This document shows, piece after piece, positions 22,650 through 31,573 of a stretch of 64,000 nt of DNA (positions are counted from its first letter, which is position 1; the number at the start of each line of letters is the position of its first letter). The translations under genes and the position numbers were made by a program. Under the pieces are notes generated by a model, which was not told the DNA's origin, made no database searches, and saw only the letters and a program-made list of their open reading frames with translations. The DNA comes from Pseudomonadota bacterium (GTDB lineage: Bacteria > Desulfobacterota > Syntrophia > Syntrophales > UBA8958): positions 1 to 64,000 of the forward strand of contig JASGUC010000014.1 of NCBI GenBank assembly GCA_030057915.1. Reading direction: 5' to 3'.

Positions 22650-23102
22650 ATGACCATCCTGTTTGTTTGCACGGCCAATATCGTCAGAAGCTTCATGGCG
22701 GAACGGATTCTGAAAGGGATGCTGGCGAAGGCCAAGCGCCGGGATATCATCGTCGCCTCCGCAGGCCTGCTGGACATGGGCGGCGCGCCCGGCGACCCCA
22801 CGGCGGCGAAAATCCTCGCCGAGCATAACTTCGACGGCGGCGGTCATCTGTCGAGGCCCTATTCGGAGTCTCTGCTGTCCCGGGCGGATTTGATCGTGGT
22901 CATGGAAAAGGCGCAGGAGGAGCGATTGCGGGCGGACTATCCCCAGCATGGGGAGAAATTGCGGCTGTTGAAGGCCTTCTCCCCGGAATATGACGGGGTC
23001 GCGGGCGACATCCGGGATCCCTACCGGCTCTCCTCTTATCATTATCGACTTTGTTTCGCCGAAATTTATACGGCGATTGCGGGGTTGTTGAAATGTATTT
23101 AG
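22650..23102 (+). CDS. Low-molecular-weight protein-tyrosine-phosphatase-like protein
   Basis: 150 residues. The active-site loop is C7-TANIV-R13-S (CX5RS) and the general-acid aspartate is D123 in RDPYRLS, as in LMW-PTPs. Such phosphatases commonly oppose Wzc-type tyrosine autokinases; a Wzc gene is 12 kb downstream. It overlaps the ExeA-like ATPase gene by 10 bp. Arsenate reductase is the main alternative but the DP motif favours phosphatase. Confidence 0.85.
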   Translation: MTILFVCTANIVRSFMAERILKGMLAKAKRRDIIVASAGLLDMGGAPGDPTAAKILAEHNFDGGGHLSRPYSESLLSRADLIVVMEKAQEERLRADYPQHGEKLRLLKAFSPEYDGVAGDIRDPYRLSSYHYRLCFAEIYTAIAGLLKCI

Positions 23103-23887
23103 ATTACTGGGGGCTCGACGCCTTTCCCTTCGAAAACGTGCCCGATCCCGATTTCATGTACTATTCGACGGAACATGAAGAGGCCCTGGTCCGGCTCATG
23201 TACGCGGTGAAGCGGATGAAGGGGGCGGCCCTTCTAACCGGGGAGATCGGAAGCGGCAAAACCACCCTGAGCCGCGTTTTCATTCAGCAGCTTCCGGACA
23301 GCGAATTCGACATCGGCCTCATCACCAACCCCTCCCTCAACGCCCTGGACTTCATCAAGGAGGTCCATTACCAGTTGGGCCTGGAATCCAAATCCAATTC
23401 CAAGTCCGAACTCCTGGTCATCCTCAACAACCGTCTGCTGGAAAACATAAACAATGGCCGCAGCACCCTCCTGATCATCGACGAGGCGCAGCTCATCTTC
23501 GGGGAGACCTTCGAGGAGATCAGGCTGCTGCTCAATTTTCAGATGAACGATCGTTTTCTCATGACCTTTCTCCTCATCGGCCAGCCGGAGCTGCGGGAGA
23601 TGATCCGAGGACACAAACAACTCGACCAGAGGATCGCCATCAGGTATCATCTCAATCCTCTGCCCGAGGAAGAGACGAGGAATTACATTCGCTTCCGCCT
23701 CGAAAAGGTGGGCGGCCGGGGCGAGACGTTCCAGGATGGGGCCTATCGGGCCATTTTCGACTATTCCGGCGGCATCCCCCGGAAGATCAACAATGTCTGC
23801 GATCTGTCGTTGCTCATCGGTTTCAGCATGAAGGTCAAGGAGATCGACGCGGCTCTGGTGCGGAAGGTGGTCAGGGATTCCCTGTAG
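23093..23887 (+). CDS. ExeA/GspA-like AAA ATPase
   Basis: 264 residues. The N-terminal MYLDYWGLDAFPFENVPDPDFMYYS is typical of ExeA-like ATPases, followed by Walker A GEIGSGKT (50-57) and Walker B LLIIDEAQ (126-133). This family includes ATPases of type II secretion and of exopolysaccharide/exosortase loci. There is no peptidoglycan-binding C-terminal domain, so it is the short form. The start overlaps the phosphatase gene; the two are probably co-translated. Confidence 0.85.
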   Translation: MYLDYWGLDAFPFENVPDPDFMYYSTEHEEALVRLMYAVKRMKGAALLTGEIGSGKTTLSRVFIQQLPDSEFDIGLITNPSLNALDFIKEVHYQLGLESKSNSKSELLVILNNRLLENINNGRSTLLIIDEAQLIFGETFEEIRLLLNFQMNDRFLMTFLLIGQPELREMIRGHKQLDQRIAIRYHLNPLPEEETRNYIRFRLEKVGGRGETFQDGAYRAIFDYSGGIPRKINNVCDLSLLIGFSMKVKEIDAALVRKVVRDSL

Positions 23888-24160: not shown

Positions 24161-24448
24161 ATGAAAACAACAATCCACGACTGCCTCCTTGCCAACCCCG
24201 AGGTGGTGCTGCGGGAGGAGTTCGACAATGCCCACATCCTCTTCAATGCCGCAACGGGGGAAATGTTCGGCATCAACAACGTCGGCGCGCTCCTCTGGAA
24301 TCATCTCGACGGGCGGCACAGCCTCGATGACCTGGTGGAAATAGTCGCCGCGCATTGCGAAGCGCCTCCTCCCGAGGCCAAGAGCCATATCGAGGCGTTT
24401 ATACGCACCGTCCTGGAGTTCGGGCTGGCAGGCCATGCCGCCGCATGA
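24161..24448 (+). CDS. PqqD-like peptide-recognition protein (RRE)
   Basis: 95 residues. The winged-helix RiPP recognition element pattern is clear: VVLREEFDNAHILFNAATGEMFGINNVGALLWNHLDG, then a helix-turn-helix with LDDLVEIVAA and a C-terminal helix. In known systems PqqD-like proteins bind the leader of a ribosomal peptide and present it to a radical SAM enzyme. The radical SAM gene follows after 7 bp. There is no strong ribosome binding site, and the start lies just behind a repeat element. Confidence 0.85.
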   Translation: MKTTIHDCLLANPEVVLREEFDNAHILFNAATGEMFGINNVGALLWNHLDGRHSLDDLVEIVAAHCEAPPPEAKSHIEAFIRTVLEFGLAGHAAA

Positions 24449-24455
24449 GGGAATC

Positions 24456-25604
24456 ATGAATGTCCCGTTGATGAAAACCCCCCGCAATGTGAATATCGAC
24501 ATCACCTCCCGCTGCAATCTCCGGTGCGCCTATTGCAGCTTTTTCTCCGGACCGGGGGATGTGAACGACGACCTGCCGTTGGATTCCTGGCTGCCCTTCA
24601 TCGACGCGCTGGGACGCCACCGGGTGCTGAACGTCATCCTTTCCGGCGGGGAGCCATTCTGCCGTCCGGACCTGCGGGAGATCATCTCCGCCATCACGGC
24701 CAATAACATGCGATTTTCCGTGCTTAGCAACGGCGTCCTCATCGACGAGGAAACGGCCTCCTTCCTGGCCTCAACCCGGCGTTGCGATCATGTCCAGGTA
24801 TCCATCGACGGGGCAATCGATACCACCCACGACGCCTTTCGCGGGGAAGGAAATTTTCTCAAGGCCCTGCGGGGCGTCAAGGCCCTGCAATCACATCAGG
24901 TCCCCGTGACGGTACGGGTCACCATCCATCGGAAAAATGTCATGGAGCTGCCGGACATCGCCCGGTTTCTCCTGGAAGACCTCGGCCTCCCCTCCTTTTC
25001 CACCAATTCGGCCTCCCACATGGGCTTGTGCCGGAGAAACGCCGCCCAGACCCAGCTCACCGTCGCCGAACAGTCCCTGGCCATGGCGACCCTCCTGACG
25101 CTCCAGGCCAAATACCACAACCGGATCAGCGCCACGGCAGGCCCCCTGGCCAATGCGCGGCAATGGCTGGAGATGGAGCGGTCCCGGCGGGAGAGGCGGG
25201 AGCAGCCCCGGGACCGGGGCTTCCTCACGGGGTGCGGCGGACCCATGGAAACCCTTTCCATCCGTTCCGACGGCGCCATCGTTCCCTGCTCCCAGTTGCC
25301 CCACATGATCCTGGGCAGGATCGACCGGGACGATCTTGGCGAGGTATGGCGAGGGCATCCGACCCTGCAAAGCTTCCGACGACGCTTCGAGATCCCCCTG
25401 ACCTCCTTCGCCTTTTGCCGGGATTGCCCCTATCTTCCCTACTGCACGGGCAATTGTCCGGCCATCGCCTACAACCTCACCGGCCGGGTCCATCATCCCT
25501 CCCCCGATTCTTGCCTAAGAGATTTCCTCGCCCAGGGAGGGCGGCTGCCCGAGGACAACGCCCGCATCGTCGCCCAGGAAGATTTTCCCCTTGACCGAAC
25601 TTGA
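24456..25604 (+). CDS. Radical SAM/SPASM peptide-modifying enzyme
   Basis: 382 residues from ATG 24456 (GAGGG just upstream; ATG 24435 is in frame but overlaps the PqqD-like gene). The AdoMet 4Fe-4S motif is C20-NLR-C24-AY-C27. Then ILSGGEPF (SAM contact) and a C-terminal SPASM region with GCGGP, VPCSQ, CRDCPYLPYCTGNCP and a last Cys in DSCL, enough for auxiliary clusters. SPASM proteins modify ribosomal peptides (thioether or C-C links). Neighbouring PqqD-like and Cys-rich precursor genes make these peptides its probable substrates. Confidence 0.88.
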   Translation: MNVPLMKTPRNVNIDITSRCNLRCAYCSFFSGPGDVNDDLPLDSWLPFIDALGRHRVLNVILSGGEPFCRPDLREIISAITANNMRFSVLSNGVLIDEETASFLASTRRCDHVQVSIDGAIDTTHDAFRGEGNFLKALRGVKALQSHQVPVTVRVTIHRKNVMELPDIARFLLEDLGLPSFSTNSASHMGLCRRNAAQTQLTVAEQSLAMATLLTLQAKYHNRISATAGPLANARQWLEMERSRRERREQPRDRGFLTGCGGPMETLSIRSDGAIVPCSQLPHMILGRIDRDDLGEVWRGHPTLQSFRRRFEIPLTSFAFCRDCPYLPYCTGNCPAIAYNLTGRVHHPSPDSCLRDFLAQGGRLPEDNARIVAQEDFPLDRT

Positions 25605-25711: not shown

Positions 25712-26107
25712 ATGAACATCCAGAGAAGATCGCTTTTCAAGGTTGCGGCGGGGGTAGCGCTGGGCGTCGTCGGCCTCTCCTTTTCAAGGAATGATACCGG
25801 TATCCCAAGGGATCTCTGGCGGGAAATGCGCCATGGCCTCTGGATGCACGCCGCCCCGACCAGAAATCCGGATATCGTGTCGGAAAACATCGGCGGAGAG
25901 ACGATCCTCCATTCCCGATCCCAGGGTGCGGCCATCCTGAAACTCAACGCCACCGCCGGGTTCATCTGGGCCCGGTGCGACGGCAGGCGCGACTTTCAGG
26001 CTATCGTTCGAGACGTAAGCGGCCGCTTCGATGTCGCCCCCGCCCGCTGCGGCCGGGACGTCCTCATGGCGGTATTGAACATGCGGCGCCGGGGCCTGTT
26101 GCTGTAG
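25712..26107 (+). CDS. PqqD-like protein with Tat-like N-terminus
   Basis: 131 residues. The N-terminus MNIQRRSLFKVAAGVALGVVG has a twin-arginine-like RRSLFK (5-10) followed by a hydrophobic stretch (11-23). The rest is a PqqD/RRE-like fold: IVSENIGGETILHSRSQGAAILKLNATAGFIWARCDG, then a helical tail. A recognition domain behind a possible export or anchor signal is unusual, since precursor binding normally happens in the cytoplasm. It may tether the maturation machinery to the membrane. GAGGGGGGATGG precedes the ATG. It stands directly before the two precursor genes. Confidence 0.72.
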   Translation: MNIQRRSLFKVAAGVALGVVGLSFSRNDTGIPRDLWREMRHGLWMHAAPTRNPDIVSENIGGETILHSRSQGAAILKLNATAGFIWARCDGRRDFQAIVRDVSGRFDVAPARCGRDVLMAVLNMRRRGLLL

Positions 26108-26137: not shown

Positions 26138-26286
26138 AAGGCGGCGGTATGGATCGGTGAGATCTTCCAGATCAGTCACGCCTCAAAGGAGAGAGGATAT
26201 GGGCGCGGACGACGATTCAAAAACCAAACTTCCCTATGAGCCACCACGGATCTTCGACCTTTTCTCCTCCCCGGCCTATGCCCAGC
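26138..26286 (+). repeat. 149-bp direct repeat, first copy (5' leader and leader-peptide codons)
   Basis: Covers the upstream hairpin, ribosome binding site and first 29 codons of the first Cys-rich peptide gene. The second copy at 26533-26681 differs at only two positions (26180 and 26215), while the sequences following the repeats diverge strongly. Confidence 0.95.
26157..26179 (+). promoter_or_regulatory. Hairpin upstream of first precursor gene
   Basis: GTGA-GATCT-TCC-AGATC-AG-TCAC forms a stem of 5 plus 4 pairs with a two-base bulge. It lies just before CCTCAAAGGAGAGAGG, the ribosome binding site, and is repeated unchanged upstream of the second gene. Confidence 0.45.
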
Positions 26287-26531
26287 AGACCGCTGATGTG
26301 AAGAGGACGTGTAATACGGGCGGCTCTCCGGGCGGGGAATGCCGCGCCGGCGGGGCGGCTGCCGACGGCAATTGTCAAAATGGCGCCACCGCATCCGATC
26401 AATGCAGAACCGGCCAAGCGCCGGCCGTGCCAACATGCTCGGTGGGAAGCTTCCCCAACAAGGCCTGTCAGACTGGATTCCTGGCCTTCGGCGTGCGGTG
26501 CACTGTGGGAGCCTTCCCAAGAATCTTTTGA
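26199..26531 (+). CDS. Cys-rich repeat peptide 1, predicted RiPP precursor
   Basis: 110 residues. A 30-residue leader with KLPYEPPRIFDL and SSPAYAQ is followed by a core with seven cysteines at 38, 48, 59, 69, 80, 90 and 101, so spacing alternates 10 and 11. Every cysteine has Gly at +3 (CxxG). The core is rich in Gly, Ala, Ser and Asn. There is no signal peptide. It sits behind radical SAM and PqqD-like genes and has an AAAGGAGAGAGG ribosome binding site. Inference: the leader is bound by a PqqD-like protein and cysteines are cross-linked by radical chemistry. A frame open upstream (from 26157) is not supported by a ribosome binding site. Confidence 0.82.
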   Translation: MGADDDSKTKLPYEPPRIFDLFSSPAYAQQTADVKRTCNTGGSPGGECRAGGAAADGNCQNGATASDQCRTGQAPAVPTCSVGSFPNKACQTGFLAFGVRCTVGAFPRIF

Positions 26532-26532
26532 C

Positions 26533-26681
26533 AAGGCGGCGGTATGGATCGGTGAGATCTTCCAGATCAGTCACACCTCAAAGGAGAGAGGATATGGGCG
26601 CGGACGACAATTCAAAAACCAAACTTCCCTATGAGCCACCACGGATCTTCGACCTTTTCTCCTCCCCGGCCTATGCCCAGC
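26533..26681 (+). repeat. 149-bp direct repeat, second copy
   Basis: Second copy of 26138-26286, offset by 395 bp, with the same hairpin, ribosome binding site and leader codons. It starts directly after the stop codon of peptide 1. Confidence 0.95.
26552..26574 (+). promoter_or_regulatory. Hairpin upstream of second precursor gene
   Basis: Identical copy of the hairpin at 26157-26179, here in the short gap between the two precursor genes; it could attenuate or insulate expression of the second gene. Confidence 0.45.
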
Positions 26682-27016
26682 CGAGTGATGTTCTCGATCC
26701 TACGTTGAAGAAATGCGCTGCTGGCGGAAGTGTAGCCTCTCTCTGTTCCACCGGCGGCTCGCCGGCCCAGGAATGCCAATCCGGCGGGGCGGCCACAGGA
26801 GGCAAATGCCAAAGCGGCAGCACCGCTTCCCAGCAATGCAATCCCGGCAGCGCCCCCACCGGGGGGAAATGCCAGGGGGGAAGCTTTCCCGTCGGGGTGT
26901 GCCGGCCGGGAAGCGCCGCCGCGGGGGGGCAGTGCCAGGAAGGAAGCGCCGCGGGGGGCCAGTGCAAGAAGGGCAGCGCCGTCTTCAAGTCCTCCCTAAC
27001 GGATGCGGACAGTTGA
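26594..27016 (+). CDS. Cys-rich repeat peptide 2, predicted RiPP precursor
   Basis: 140 residues. The leader is identical to peptide 1 over 29 residues except D6 to N. The core has nine cysteines at 41, 51, 61, 72, 82, 93, 103, 114 and 124 (spacing 10 or 11), each followed by Gly at +3, giving a unit such as CQSGSTASQQ. Cores of the two peptides are alike in pattern but not in sequence, and differ in repeat number. No signal peptide or membrane segment. The regular 21-residue double unit suggests a solenoid-like or laddered product after modification; that is inference. Confidence 0.82.
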   Translation: MGADDNSKTKLPYEPPRIFDLFSSPAYAQPSDVLDPTLKKCAAGGSVASLCSTGGSPAQECQSGGAATGGKCQSGSTASQQCNPGSAPTGGKCQGGSFPVGVCRPGSAAAGGQCQEGSAAGGQCKKGSAVFKSSLTDADS

Positions 27017-27215
27017 GTTCCGAGGACGGATGACGTCCCCACCGCCTCTTGGTCCGTCCGGGACGGGATCGTAAAAAACCGCGAATCGCCCCCCTTGGAA
27101 GGGGCGCCTCAATGGGGATCACCTGCGGGCTCGGCGTCCCCCAGCAGAAGGTTTTGCCTGAGTGGTTAATTGAGACGGATCGCCTGCGGGCTTGGCGTCC
27201 CCCAGCCGTCCCCTG
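27017..27215. other. Convergent intergenic region with 30-bp direct repeat and hairpin
   Basis: Between the precursor genes (plus) and the HprK-like gene (minus). CGCCCCCCTTGGAAGGGGCG at 27087-27106 is an inverted repeat that may end transcription. A 30-bp word including CCTGCGGGCTCGGCGTCCCC occurs at 27116-27145 and 27177-27206 with two differences. No gene is evident. Confidence 0.6.
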
Positions 27216-28211
27216 TCATGCCGCCACGAACTCCCAGAAACCGCCGTCCCGGCGGAAATAGAGATCGGCGGCGGGAACCGCCCCACAGAGCGCATGACAG
27301 AACTCGAAGGCCCGCCTCTTCAACGACGCCTCCATCAATCCGTAACCGTGCACATGATCGGCCAGAAGCTCCATGCAGGCGTAGCGCCGGTCCCGGGGCG
27401 TCATCCGGGTCCGGGCGGCCTGGTGGAGAAAGACGATCCGCCGCAATTGCTCCCGCTGGAGACGCCACCGCCTGGGTCTTTCCCGGGCTATGCCCACCTG
27501 GGTGAACGGAGTGGCATGGATGATGAACCCGTCCTCTCCCGCCTCGATCAAGGTGGCATCGTCGGACAGCACGGTCTCCCCTGGAGACAGGGCAGCGATC
27601 GTGGACTTCCCCGCCCCCGAGCGACCGAGAAACAGATAGCCCCCCCCGCCCCGGCGCCTCTTGATGCCGGCCCCATGGGCCAGGAGGCGGTTTTTACCGA
27701 CCATGGCCAGGCAGACAAACACGAAAGCAAGCTTCCATATCGTCGCCGGTACATGAAGCGCCGCTTTCGCGTGGAAGATGTAAATCACCCCCCGGTTGGC
27801 GGGTCCGTCGAGGATCAGACAGCCGTTCAAGAAGCCCACCGCCGTCGCGGCGGTGTCCATGACGCCGGGAAAGACCTCTTCCATCCGGTCTCCAAGGGCC
27901 GCCGCCCAAGGGGAGGCCTGCCGCTCGAAAAGCGCGGGTTCGCTGCCGAAGCGCCGCGGGTAGCTCCGTTCGCAATCGTAATGGACGCGACACTCCAGCA
28001 TGGCCTTGCTTCTGGGGGAGACAAGAAATCCGCTCCAGAGCGGTTCGATTTCAGCGAGGATATGCTCCGCGGCCTCGCCGTGGGCAACAAGATCGATGCG
28101 GACCCCGGCGATGGCGACGGCGATCCTTACATGATTAGGATTTCTCAGTCGCTTCGCTCCTTCGAAATGACATCCGGGTAGGCTCGCGCTCCTCGAAATG
28201 ACATTTTTCAA
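27216..28211 (-). CDS. HPr kinase-like P-loop protein of the RiPP locus
   Basis: 331 residues if TTG 28211 is the start. The P-loop is GRSGAGKS (196-203) within LFLGRSGAGKSTIAALSPG, followed by LSDDATLI, as in HprK/Ser kinase-like ATPases found beside PqqD and radical SAM genes. The N-terminal 26 or so codons read through a repeat element; between 28211 and Met71 there is no in-frame ATG or GTG, so the original start may have been replaced by the repeat. It overlaps the upstream radical SAM gene by 77 bp within that repeat. Family resemblance to SynChlorMet-type ScmC proteins is recalled, not tested. Confidence 0.75.
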   Translation of the reverse strand: MKNVISRSASLPGCHFEGAKRLRNPNHVRIAVAIAGVRIDLVAHGEAAEHILAEIEPLWSGFLVSPRSKAMLECRVHYDCERSYPRRFGSEPALFERQASPWAAALGDRMEEVFPGVMDTAATAVGFLNGCLILDGPANRGVIYIFHAKAALHVPATIWKLAFVFVCLAMVGKNRLLAHGAGIKRRRGGGGYLFLGRSGAGKSTIAALSPGETVLSDDATLIEAGEDGFIIHATPFTQVGIARERPRRWRLQREQLRRIVFLHQAARTRMTPRDRRYACMELLADHVHGYGLMEASLKRRAFEFCHALCGAVPAADLYFRRDGGFWEFVAA

Positions 28212-29328
28212 TACCGGGTGCGTCGTAGAGGCGTGACGGGGGGAAGAGATTTTTATGCTCGGCCTCCCGGCACATGAAAAACGGGCTCCCGAGGTCGCCG
28301 TCGGCGGCGTAGGCGCAGGCCCGGCAGGCCCCCAGGCATCGGTACTTGAAGATGCACCGCCCGCAGACCCCGGCGAGCCGGGAAGGGATGTCCTCCCTTA
28401 GCCGCCGCAAAATGGGGTGTCGGCGCCAGATCTCCCGGATGTCGTCCGTGGCGATATTGCCCATGTTGAGTTCCGTCTCCGTCTGCCCGATGCCGCAGAG
28501 CGACACCGTCCCGTCGGCGAGGATTCCCAGGATATTGAGGATGTGGCATTCGTAGAGGGGGGCGCCGGTGATCCTTTCCAGGGACTTCAGGCCGATGGGC
28601 ATGCTTAGGGAAATGTCCGTTTTGTATTCGCCGTTCAGCTCCCCATCGATCCAGCGATCGATGCGGATGAGTTCCTCGATCGCCACGTTTTCCCCGCGCT
28701 GGAAGACCATCTTCCCCCGTCCCGTGGGCATGATGGGATTGATTTTCAGCGAGGGCACCCCAAGATCGTCGCAGAGGGCCGCCAACGGTTCGATCTCCGC
28801 GACGTTTTCCTCATACAGGCTCATGATGACCTGCCTGGCAACCCCCTCCGCCCCGAGGAGGCGCAGGGCCTCCACGGCCAGGGCATGGGCGCCCGGAGAA
28901 CCGCGGAGCCGGTCGTGCTGGTCCGCCCGGGCCGCGTCCAGGCTGATCGACACCTGGCGGACCCCGCATTCCCCGATGACCCGCGCCATATCCGCATCGA
29001 TCATCGTCCCGTTGCTCTCGATATCGACGATCAGGTCCTCCAGTTGGAGAAACCTTAGCAGGGCGAGGATGTCGCCGCGGAGGAAGGGCTCGCCGCCGGT
29101 GAGCTTCACCGTCCCCAGGCCCAGTTCCTTCGCCCGAATCACGGCCTCCGTAAGGACGGCGAAATCCACCAGTTTCTCCGTCCCGGCCCCCGGCGGGGGC
29201 GGGGCGACCCAGCAATGCCGGCACCGGAGATTGCAACGTTCGGAAAGATATAGATAAAGACTGCCCAGGAGGGGTGCATCAGGCGTAGCTTGTAGCTGAT
29301 AGCTGGTGGCTCGTGGGATTTTGCACAT
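28135..29328 (-). CDS. Radical SAM/SPASM peptide-modifying enzyme, second
   Basis: 397 residues. The AdoMet cluster motif is C32-NLR-C36-RH-C39, then VKLTGGEPFLRGD and a SPASM region with YECHIL, SLCGIG, CGRCIFKYRCLGACRACAY and FMCREAEH. It differs clearly from the first enzyme. ATG 29328 has AGGAG seven bases upstream. Codons 1-17 lie inside a 100-bp direct repeat, and the last 22 residues (CHFEEREPTRMSFRRSEATEKS, read as two blocks) derive from another repeat, so both ends appear remodelled. It faces the precursor genes from the opposite strand. Confidence 0.85.
   Translation of the reverse strand: MCKIPRATSYQLQATPDAPLLGSLYLYLSERCNLRCRHCWVAPPPPGAGTEKLVDFAVLTEAVIRAKELGLGTVKLTGGEPFLRGDILALLRFLQLEDLIVDIESNGTMIDADMARVIGECGVRQVSISLDAARADQHDRLRGSPGAHALAVEALRLLGAEGVARQVIMSLYEENVAEIEPLAALCDDLGVPSLKINPIMPTGRGKMVFQRGENVAIEELIRIDRWIDGELNGEYKTDISLSMPIGLKSLERITGAPLYECHILNILGILADGTVSLCGIGQTETELNMGNIATDDIREIWRRHPILRRLREDIPSRLAGVCGRCIFKYRCLGACRACAYAADGDLGSPFFMCREAEHKNLFPPSRLYDAPGIEKCHFEEREPTRMSFRRSEATEKS
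28137..28214. repeat. GAGACC-family fragment, core type 2 (GTCATTTCGA), at a gene junction
   Basis: Two copies of the half-unit ending CTCCTTCGAAATGACAT and CTCCTCGAAATGACATTTTTCA. Both the last 22 codons of the radical SAM gene (28135-29328) and the first codons of the HprK-like gene are made of this repeat, each in its own frame. Confidence 0.85.
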
Positions 29329-29382
29329 ATATGTTCTCCTATGAGCTATGACCTATGAGCTATGACCTATGACCTAATTCAT
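29277..29382. repeat. 100-bp direct repeat, first copy, rich in AGCTATGACCT
   Basis: Contains the start region of the second radical SAM gene and the 3' end of the PqqD-like gene. Words CATCAGGCGTAGCTTG, GTGGCTCGTGGGATTTTGC and tandem CTATGAGCTATGACCTATGA are shared with the copy at 30062-30153. Confidence 0.85.
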
Positions 29383-29683
29383 TGGCCTCGTCTTTCCGCA
29401 AAAACCCCAGGGCCGCCAGTTCCCGCAGGAATGCCGTCGCATCTGCGGTGACCGCTTCCCCATCCGCATCGGGATACAGAACCTTCAAGGCCGTCACGAT
29501 CTCCTCCCTGGTTTTCCCGCCGTCGCAGAGTTCGTAGATCCGCACGCCGGTCCCGTTTATGTACCTGAGGTTGCCGGAGTGAGGATCGAAGAGGAAGGCC
29601 CCGTCTTCCTCCTTTCTGAACACCGCCTCCGGGTTGGGACTCAGAAAATCCATGTAGTCGTTCGGTTTTCCTTCTTCGTTCAT
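29360..29683 (-). CDS. PqqD-like peptide-recognition protein, third
   Basis: 107 residues. The RRE pattern is visible in AVFRKEEDGAFLFDPHSGNLRYINGTGVRIYELCDGG, then KTREEIVTALKVLYPD and a C-terminal helix. The last residues (NELGHRS) fall in the flanking direct repeat. It is just upstream of the second radical SAM gene on the same strand and probably its leader-binding partner. GGGAG lies before the ATG. Confidence 0.83.
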   Translation of the reverse strand: MNEEGKPNDYMDFLSPNPEAVFRKEEDGAFLFDPHSGNLRYINGTGVRIYELCDGGKTREEIVTALKVLYPDADGEAVTADATAFLRELAALGFLRKDEANELGHRS

Positions 29684-29785: not shown

Positions 29786-29945
29786 GAGAGCTTTGAATAA
29801 CGGCCATTTTTGTCATTTCGACCCAAGGGATAAATCCATATCCCGAATGCCATGAGAGACCTTAGGATTTCTCAGTCGCTTCGCTCCTTCGCAATGACAT
29901 CTGGGTAGGCTCGCGCTCCTCGAAATGACATTTTTCAAAGGTCTC
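29786..29945. repeat. GAGACC-family element, core type 2, full length
   Basis: 160 bp from GAGAGCTTTGAATAA to TTTTTCAAAGGTCTC. Inner units read TGTCATTTCGACCCAAGGG and CTCGAAATGACA, able to pair with each other. It is the longest complete copy in the window. Confidence 0.9.
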
Positions 29946-29956
29946 CGCCCGCCGTG

Positions 29957-30030
29957 GGGCCTTTGAAAATCTTCGCTCTGCCATGCTTAGGATTTCTCGT
30001 CGCTCGCGCTCCTCGAAATGACATTTTTGG
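29957..30030. repeat. GAGACC-family fragment, core type 2
   Basis: Begins GGGGCCTTTGAAAATC and ends CTCCTCGAAATGACATTTTTGG, lacking the intact far end. It follows the previous copy by 11 bp. Confidence 0.75.
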
Positions 30031-30153: not shown

Positions 30154-30242
30154 CGTTCGTTGGGCCTGCCACAGGCGTCGGGGGTTAGTCAAGATATATT
30201 TCCCTTTTTCCCGCGCCCCTGCTATCATGCGCCACCAACAGC

Positions 30243-30370
30243 TTCGCAGGAGCGCGAGCCTACCCTCATGTCATTTCGAAGGAGCGAAGCGACGAGAAAT
30301 CCTAAGATCCCTCATTGCCTTCGGGGCATGGATTTCTCCCTTCGGCCGAAATGACAAAAAAGGAGTCGAA
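30243..30370. repeat. Core-type-2 repeat unit preceding a start codon
   Basis: Contains GTCATTTCGAAGGAGCGAAG and the inverted CCCTTCGGCCGAAATGAC. Its last words, AAGGAGTCGAAATGACAAAA, give the ribosome binding site and ATG of the next gene. Confidence 0.75.
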
Positions 30371-31573
30371 ATGACAAAAGTGGAAGGCGCCATCGAACGG
30401 ACCCTGTTTTCCCTGTTGAACCAGGCCCCGGCGCTCGACCTCCCGGAGGTGCTCGCGGCCCCGGAATTGCTTCCCTTTCTGGATAAAAACGGCGTCGCCG
30501 GGACGTTTTACCACGCGCTGCGAAAGTCCGGATGGAAAGAACCACTCCCGGGGGGCGTTTATGAGGCCCTCCGGGGACGATTCAACTCTCAGATCGCCCG
30601 GAACATGGCCTGCGCCGCGGCGGCCAGGGAGACGTTCCGACTGCTGCATCGGGAGGGCATCCCCTTCTTGGTCCTGAAGGGTCTCGCCCTGGCGGAGAAT
30701 GTTTACCCCCACTTCGGCATGCGCACAACCTCGGACCTGGATGTCCTCATCCGCCGGGAAGACCTGTTGCGGGCCGACGCGGCCCTCGGCGGGGCCGGCT
30801 ATCATGCCCGGGACAGCACCCCCCGGCGGGCGCTGCTCAACCCCCCGGGGTATCTGGCCAGCCTCGAATTCCACCGTCCCGGCAGCGTCTTTTCCTACCT
30901 CCACCTGCACTGGCATCTCGTCAACACCTCGGTCCCCGCCTTCGGTTTCATCGAAAACATCGACATGGAGAGGATCTGGAATCGATCCCGGACGGGCTTG
31001 GTCGCGTGTGCCGAAGCGCGCCTGCTGGGTCCGGAACATCTGATCATCTACCTGTGCGAACATGGGCTGCGGGTCGGTCACTCCTTCGACCGCCTGAATC
31101 TGATCTGCGATCTCTACTACGCCATCAAGAACCCGGGTGCCCCCCTCGACTGGGACCTGGCGGCCGCCGAGGCCAAGGAACTGGGGCTCCGGAATTTCGT
31201 TTATCTCGGCCTGAGGATCGTCCAGGCATACGGAGGAAAGGCGCTACTCGACGACGCGACCATGGAGAAATTCGCCCCCCCTTCCCTCTCCGTCTGGGAG
31301 CGCCTTTTCCTGGCCATGCAGTTACATGGCCTCCGGTTGCGGGGGAGCAGCTTTCTCGTTTACCTGGCCGCGAGCAAAGGGGCCTTCGGCAAGGGCCGTC
31401 TCATCCTCCGCACCCTCTTTCCTCCCCGCCCGATCCTGGCTCAGCGGTCTTGGCGATGGGCGGACGCCCATCCGACGACTCTGTATTTCCGGAGGATAGG
31501 GGAGACAATGACGGTGCTGATCCGGCTGGCCAGACGCCTCGCCCGGCAGCCGGCCCGGAGGAGCAATCTTTAA
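30371..31573 (+). CDS. Nucleotidyltransferase-fold family protein (NTP_transf_5-like)
   Basis: 400 residues. LVLKGLALAENVYPHFGMRTTSDLDVLI contains the conserved KG (103-104) and the metal-binding D122 and D124 of the uncharacterised nucleotidyltransferase family often found in capsule and RiPP loci. The reaction is unknown. ATG 30371 sits in repeat-like sequence (AAGGAGTCGAAATGAC), with a good ribosome binding site; the frame extends upstream to 30227 but only through the repeat. It could belong to the RiPP locus or to the polysaccharide locus. Confidence 0.78.
   Translation: MTKVEGAIERTLFSLLNQAPALDLPEVLAAPELLPFLDKNGVAGTFYHALRKSGWKEPLPGGVYEALRGRFNSQIARNMACAAAARETFRLLHREGIPFLVLKGLALAENVYPHFGMRTTSDLDVLIRREDLLRADAALGGAGYHARDSTPRRALLNPPGYLASLEFHRPGSVFSYLHLHWHLVNTSVPAFGFIENIDMERIWNRSRTGLVACAEARLLGPEHLIIYLCEHGLRVGHSFDRLNLICDLYYAIKNPGAPLDWDLAAAEAKELGLRNFVYLGLRIVQAYGGKALLDDATMEKFAPPSLSVWERLFLAMQLHGLRLRGSSFLVYLAASKGAFGKGRLILRTLFPPRPILAQRSWRWADAHPTTLYFRRIGETMTVLIRLARRLARQPARRSNL

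Follow-up and report, generated by a model that had tools for sequence, protein, structure and literature searches.

Two neighbouring genes in the window (the whole 64,000-nucleotide stretch of DNA that was analysed) encode short peptides, P1 and P2, whose cores are arrays of regularly spaced CxxG modules. The locus is apparently a divergent variant of SynChlorMet (SCM), a radical-enzyme system of numerous anaerobes that is named in NCBIfam but little studied, and it represents a subtype with an apparently exported PqqD protein. We consider P1 and P2 to be probable RiPP precursors of the SCM type, in which every CxxG module is the site of one modification. The work defines a precursor code, a YxxP leader followed by CxxG every 9-12 residues, for peptides that the curated ScmA model mostly misses.

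Two probable precursors with a regular CxxG array

P1 is encoded on the forward strand at 26199..26531 (ATG at 26199, stop codon ending at 26531; 110 amino acids) and P2 on the same strand at 26594..27016 (140 amino acids), with a Shine-Dalgarno-like AAAGGAGAGAGG ahead of the ATG in both cases. P1 has a YEPP leader ending in AYAQ and seven CxxG modules with 10/11 spacing, its cysteines being residues 38, 48, 59, 69, 80, 90 and 101 (intervals of 10, 11, 10, 11, 10 and 11). The nine modules of P2 place cysteines at residues 41, 51, 61, 72, 82, 93, 103, 114 and 124 (intervals of 10, 10, 11, 10, 11, 10, 11 and 10). These coordinates and intervals are exactly as the initial annotation gave them. 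When equal numbers of cysteines were placed at random, all intervals fell within one residue in 9 of 400,000 trials for P1 and in none of 400,000 for P2; chance is thus ruled out and the regular spacing is real. Glycine occupies the third position after cysteine (+3) in 7/7 modules of P1 and 9/9 modules of P2 (16/16 in total), against a glycine background of 18-22%. The non-cysteine positions had been described as freely variable, which proved incorrect, as Gly+3 is invariant in both peptides and Ala or Pro is strongly favoured at +6.

The two genes share a block of 152 nt (26138..26289 and 26533..26684, both on the forward strand) that is 98% identical and consists of 61 nt of upstream sequence plus the leader; the match stops at the leader/core boundary. 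Between the two leaders there are no synonymous changes over 20 sites. Identity between the cores outside C, G+3 and +6 is 29% (dS 0.65, dN 0.81), and C and G+3 are kept at 100%. This pattern points either to recent copying of the leader from one gene to the other or to an exchange of the cores. Precursors in three genomes of the same genus have the nine-unit layout of P2, from which they differ with pS 0.6-0.8 and with C and G+3 unchanged.

Regular spacing could also be left behind by recent tandem duplication, the array being a low-complexity repeat expansion with no function, and short tandem repeats (30-33 nt) are indeed found near the 3' end of P2. We give this explanation almost no credence, because a neutral repeat array is in the main ruled out by the fixation of C and G+3 while the remaining core codons diverged, and because such arrays are retained across several phyla as well as among archaea. 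Separately, a 30-nt direct repeat (27116-27145 and 27177-27206, 61 nt apart) lies between P2 and the ScmC-like gene described below.

The SCM cassette and its relatives

The cassette has the same gene set as SCM (TIGR04248-TIGR04252): ScmE scores over the cut-off, and other Scm models are the best matches for its neighbours and for P1. It differs from SCM in possessing an extra Tat-like PqqD2 and a PqqD3, in its longer and more regular CxxG arrays, and in the scores of ScmA, ScmC, ScmD and ScmF, which are below cut-off. Ahead of the precursors on the forward strand are a ScmD-like PqqD chaperone (24161..24448; TIGR04248 81.5 bits, cut-off 100; Pfam PqqD 1.4e-13), the ScmE radical SAM/SPASM enzyme (24435..25604; TIGR04250 558.3 bits, cut-off 400) and, directly upstream of P1, PqqD2 with its Tat-like N-terminus (25712..26107; Pfam PqqD 2.4e-13). 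Beyond them, on the reverse strand, are a ScmC-like HprK-type P-loop protein bearing GRSGAGKS (27216..28211; TIGR04249 25.7 bits, cut-off 125), a ScmF-like radical SAM/SPASM enzyme (28135..29328; TIGR04251 316.9 bits, cut-off 400) and the third PqqD protein, PqqD3 (29360..29683; Pfam PqqD 1.6e-14), followed on the forward strand by an NTP_transf_5 nucleotidyltransferase (30227..31573; PF14907 7.7e-46). A dispersed repeat (GTCGCTTCGCTCCTTCGAAATGACAT...) has direct and inverted copies at 28135-28211, 29862-29938, 30002-30028 and 30248-30363. The 3' end of the ScmF frame derives from it, as do the 5' ends of the ScmC and NTP_transf_5 frames, which makes these annotated ends unreliable; the true start of the ScmC-like protein is probably inside its frame, and the start of the nucleotidyltransferase is uncertain.

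By the curated cut-offs ScmE alone is an SCM member, and it is the sole TIGR04250 match over the cut-off in the genome; ScmA, ScmC, ScmD and ScmF are divergent relatives. TIGR04251, TIGR04248 and TIGR04249 are the best families of the ScmF-, ScmD- and ScmC-like proteins even though the scores are below the cut-offs. The ScmA model (TIGR04252, cut-off 35) gave 30.8 bits for P1 and 11.7 bits for P2, both below, and in whole-genome searches its cut-off was reached in none of the 33 genomes with an ScmE locus. Radical_SAM and SPASM domains are present in both ScmE and the ScmF-like enzyme. The ScmC-like protein is conserved beside precursors in relatives, and the gene order is shared with loci L031, L218, L233 and L234 of related genomes. 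Neither a leader protease nor a dedicated exporter was identified within the cassette. At one end the cassette is flanked by an XrtA-type ATPase gene and a gene for a low-molecular-weight phosphatase, and at the opposite end by a gene for polysaccharide export. The ATPase gene (23051-23887) lies within an exopolysaccharide (EPS) locus. A link to exosortase was considered and rejected: the XrtA-type ATPase gene adjoins the cassette, but the genome contains no exosortase (PF09721).

A scan with a ScmE alignment identified some 25 genuine ScmE loci, at 41-72% identity, to which genome searches added more. They are distributed among Deltaproteobacteria, Nitrospirae, Aminicenantes, Omnitrophota, Chlorobi, Chloroflexi, Brocadiaceae, Lentisphaeria and methanogens, and most contain one to three short genes whose products have a Y-x-x-P leader followed by a core rich in CxxG. 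A viral origin was rejected, as scanning viral contigs for ScmE turned up weak relatives only (20-35% identity). We collected 76 similar precursors from bacteria and archaea, nearly all of them adjoining SCM genes; the collection required at least two CxxG per precursor, so the share of CxxG in it is somewhat inflated. Among genomes of the order, 23/30 with ScmE had CxxG precursors, versus 5/125 without it (Fisher P 9e-17, uncorrected for shared ancestry). In the four of these five ScmE-less genomes that were inspected, ScmF and ScmC lie beside the precursor, and in three of the four so does a more divergent ScmE-like protein. The seven ScmE genomes that gave no profile match belong to one family whose precursors are Cys-dense; visual inspection recognised several of these. 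Cys-dense SCM precursors (L025, L221, L225-L228; mostly one family within the window's order) have up to 17 cysteines, CC pairs and irregular spacing. One CxxG precursor (L269:7346-7543) has no SCM gene within 7 kb and is a possible orphan.

Cysteine intervals of 10 or 11 make up 94% of those in the window's subtype (n=26), 74% in other regular precursors (n=36) and 23% in Cys-dense ones (n=14). Glycine is found at +3 in 99%, 87% and 56% of modules, respectively, against a background of about 20%; whether the precursor is regular or Cys-dense, no position except the invariant cysteine is nearly as well conserved as G+3. Ala and Pro are favoured at +6, where Ala is the commonest residue, and in units of 11 residues the extra residue falls between +6 and the next cysteine. 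Switches between 10 and 11 numbered 108 in the window's AYA-leader subtype versus 76.4 after shuffling (sd 5.4), a comparison in which related sequences overstate independence; elsewhere they numbered 37 versus 30.0 (sd 3.2), a slight excess, again among related sequences. Shared ancestry accounts for part of this alternation. In the wider family cysteine spacing ranges from 1 to 18 residues and is mostly 9-12, and the family-wide signal is a YxxP leader plus a CxxG module every 9-12 residues.

The initial annotation had proposed a 21-residue super-period in both precursors, with homologues expected to keep the spacing while other positions vary. Module spacing of about ten residues held up in the homologues, and 10/11 alternation does characterise the window's subtype, although P2 itself opens with 10, 10. 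Irregular spacing in homologues had been named as the refuting observation, and by this measure the strict 21-residue period fails outside the subtype. A universal 21-residue period was rejected: strong alternation is restricted to the AYA-leader subtype, which makes the super-period the trait of one branch.

Proposed modification of the CxxG modules

Based on homology, we propose that the ScmD-like PqqD chaperone would bind the YEPP leader and present the core to ScmE and the ScmF-like enzyme, a radical SAM/SPASM pair that would work along the CxxG array. The likeliest product in each module would be a four-residue ring closed by a thioether from the cysteine to the alpha-carbon of Gly+3. The rings would be unnested, with linkers of 6-7 residues between them, so that the whole forms an open ladder. 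The homologies of the ScmC-like protein and the NTP_transf_5 protein suggest that the former, an HprK-like protein, probably phosphorylates serine and that the latter then glycosylates it. For the thioether to Gly+3, a proposal made by analogy, we see an even chance. It draws on G+3 being the most conserved partner of the cysteine, on SkfB being the nearest solved relative of ScmE (6efn, the best match at 7e-28; PqqE and the radical SAM protein 5wgg are the other closest ones) and on the geometry of the Cys31-Gly34 link in streptosactin.

Streptosactin has Cys31-Gly34 and Cys25-Ser28 links that are unnested (PMC8172795). As a type II unnested sactipeptide system, GggA/GggB resembles the window's cassette in its SPASM enzyme, and its Cys-x-x-acceptor arrangement, with the acceptor at +3 (PMC8172795), is the one that the CxxG modules of P1 and P2 would have if Gly+3 takes the thioether. 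It has two links, versus the seven to nine possible in P1 and P2, and unlike the window's cassette it lacks both another radical SAM enzyme and an array of free-standing PqqD proteins.

P1 and P2 might instead be SCM RiPP precursors from which ScmE and ScmF make something else: carbon-carbon or ether crosslinks, epimerised residues, or a thioether whose acceptor is not Gly+3. Alternatively, the cysteines might remain free for metal binding or disulfides. SPASM enzymes catalyse many reactions, the NirJ, AhbD and PqqE families also score with ScmE, and Ala or Pro is favoured at +6 as well. Two radical SAM enzymes are conserved, moreover, and they imply a second reaction beyond the proposed thioether step. 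Gly+3 could also act as a turn residue or a recognition element, as opposed to an acceptor. We regard a different product as possible but the less probable outcome, given that conservation of G+3 is second to that of cysteine alone and that, of the proteins with solved structures, the one closest to ScmE is a sactisynthase.

The PapA/PapB (freyrasin) and TvgA/TvgB systems are similar to the proposed reaction in that each repeat of a motif along an extended core offers one site to a radical SAM enzyme; they differ in their motifs and products and in having one radical SAM enzyme each. The PapA motif is CxxxD. That of TvgA is TVGG, and the repeats of this precursor have been proposed as the source of several small products (PMC9062424). 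The identical CxxG in every module of P1 and P2 would suit a similar fate, with the array cut into many short, alike products, one per module or module pair. We find this rather improbable, as no conserved cleavage motif is apparent between modules, the linkers vary and the cassette has yielded no protease for such cuts.

A further likeness is to lasso peptide systems of the paeninodin/pseudomycoidin kind, which combine a YxxP leader, a PqqD-like RRE, and an HprK-like kinase with a nucleotidyltransferase. Lasso-peptide RREs recognise a YxxP motif in the leader (PMC12710340), and an HprK-like kinase and a nucleotidyltransferase phosphorylate and glycosylate a lasso peptide (PMC8498205). The YxxP leader and the PqqD-like RRE are both present in the window. 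Lasso systems depend on a cyclase and a B2 protease, whereas the window's cassette has radical SAM enzymes instead; a scan of the cassette proteins (23.0-31.6 kb) revealed no Asn-synthetase-like cyclase or B2 protease.

Strict phasing in a Gly/Ala/Ser-rich sequence had been read as typical of either a solenoid or a modified substrate. Precursors with repeated modification sites fit the cassette; the beta-solenoid, for which structure prediction had been put forward as a check, received no support from AlphaFold2. The core of P2 was predicted with pLDDT 32-38, about alike from an 11-sequence alignment and from the single sequence, and neither run gave repeating strands or any secondary-structure element of at least 3 residues. 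The YEPP region was the only one to reach pLDDT 78 (in the run with the alignment). Ten-residue solenoids with cysteines do exist, as in the midge antifreeze protein, and the 10/11 regularity would suit a regularly folded structural protein with stacked cysteines, beta-solenoid or other, that is not a RiPP. Such a protein seems very unlikely here, considering the AlphaFold2 results, the adjoining PqqD and two maturases, the YxxP leader, and the spacing in the wider family, which drifts between 1 and 18 residues. Low AlphaFold2 confidence may be compatible with a fold that arises only after modification.

The RiPP precursor reading that we favour leads to a testable prediction, that ScmE and ScmF make one modification per CxxG. 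If there is a thioether ring at every module, the product would be a long natural ring array and would serve well as a model for studying how radical SAM enzymes act iteratively. The literature searched contained nothing on SynChlorMet, its TIGR accessions, SCM chemistry, or CxxG in connection with radical SAM enzymes; as far as we found, the chemistry of the SCM product has not been described, nor did that literature describe the code of CxxG modules, how widely the precursors are distributed or the Tat-like PqqD subtype.

PqqD2 and the A[YHF]A leader

PqqD proteins are leader-binding chaperones that work with cytoplasmic maturases, and a Tat-like PqqD is unexpected given this role. PqqD2 of the window has QRRSLFK and a hydrophobic stretch at its N-terminus; 'Tat-like' is a motif call, the Pfam TAT_signal model scoring 10.7, below its threshold of 22.7. 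The last residues of the leader are A-[YHF]-A (AYA, AHA or AFA) in the window and in many of its relatives. The second PqqD protein of this subtype, often encoded directly upstream of the precursor, has an N-terminal RRxF or RRSL (KRNF in 2/13) followed by a hydrophobic stretch with hydropathy of 1.5-2.3.

Across a phylum sample of 297 genomes, a match to PqqD2 that runs through its N-terminal part was found in 5/5 genomes with an A[YHF]A-type leader (G000, G157, where the leader ends in AQA, G291, G033 and G072) and in 0/292 others, counts that are uncorrected for shared ancestry; the remaining matches span the PqqD domain only. Within the order, the association also holds in G457, G389, G390 and G427. 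The precursor and PqqD2 of G157 are together, apart from ScmE and ScmF, and those of G291 are on different contigs. PqqD2 is missing for one of the three L054 precursors (AYA) and at L267 and L269 (VQA/AQA), and at L033 PqqD2 is present and no precursor was found on the contig. The PqqD2 loci form two groups in the ScmE and ScmF trees, and these groups disagree between the trees, indicating a reshuffling of ScmE and ScmF during which the pairing of PqqD2 with the leader end was kept.

The association of PqqD2 with the leader end suggests export of the peptide with its chaperone, and a TatC gene is present in the genome. In this subtype PqqD2, by way of its Tat-like signal, might carry the modified peptide across the membrane; such Tat co-export is a tentative suggestion from the sequences. 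Cleavage of the leader near AYA|Q beyond the membrane is speculative, and a signal peptidase I cut at AYA would be unusual, as the leader has no hydrophobic segment. We consider doubtful the fuller scheme in which a fully crosslinked multi-ring peptide would hitch-hike on the Tat-signalled PqqD and be cut outside at A[YHF]A, yielding a phosphorylated and glycosylated thioether ladder from an exopolysaccharide locus. One genome (G445, loci L235 and L237) has three ScmE matches and contains both subtypes, with and without PqqD2.
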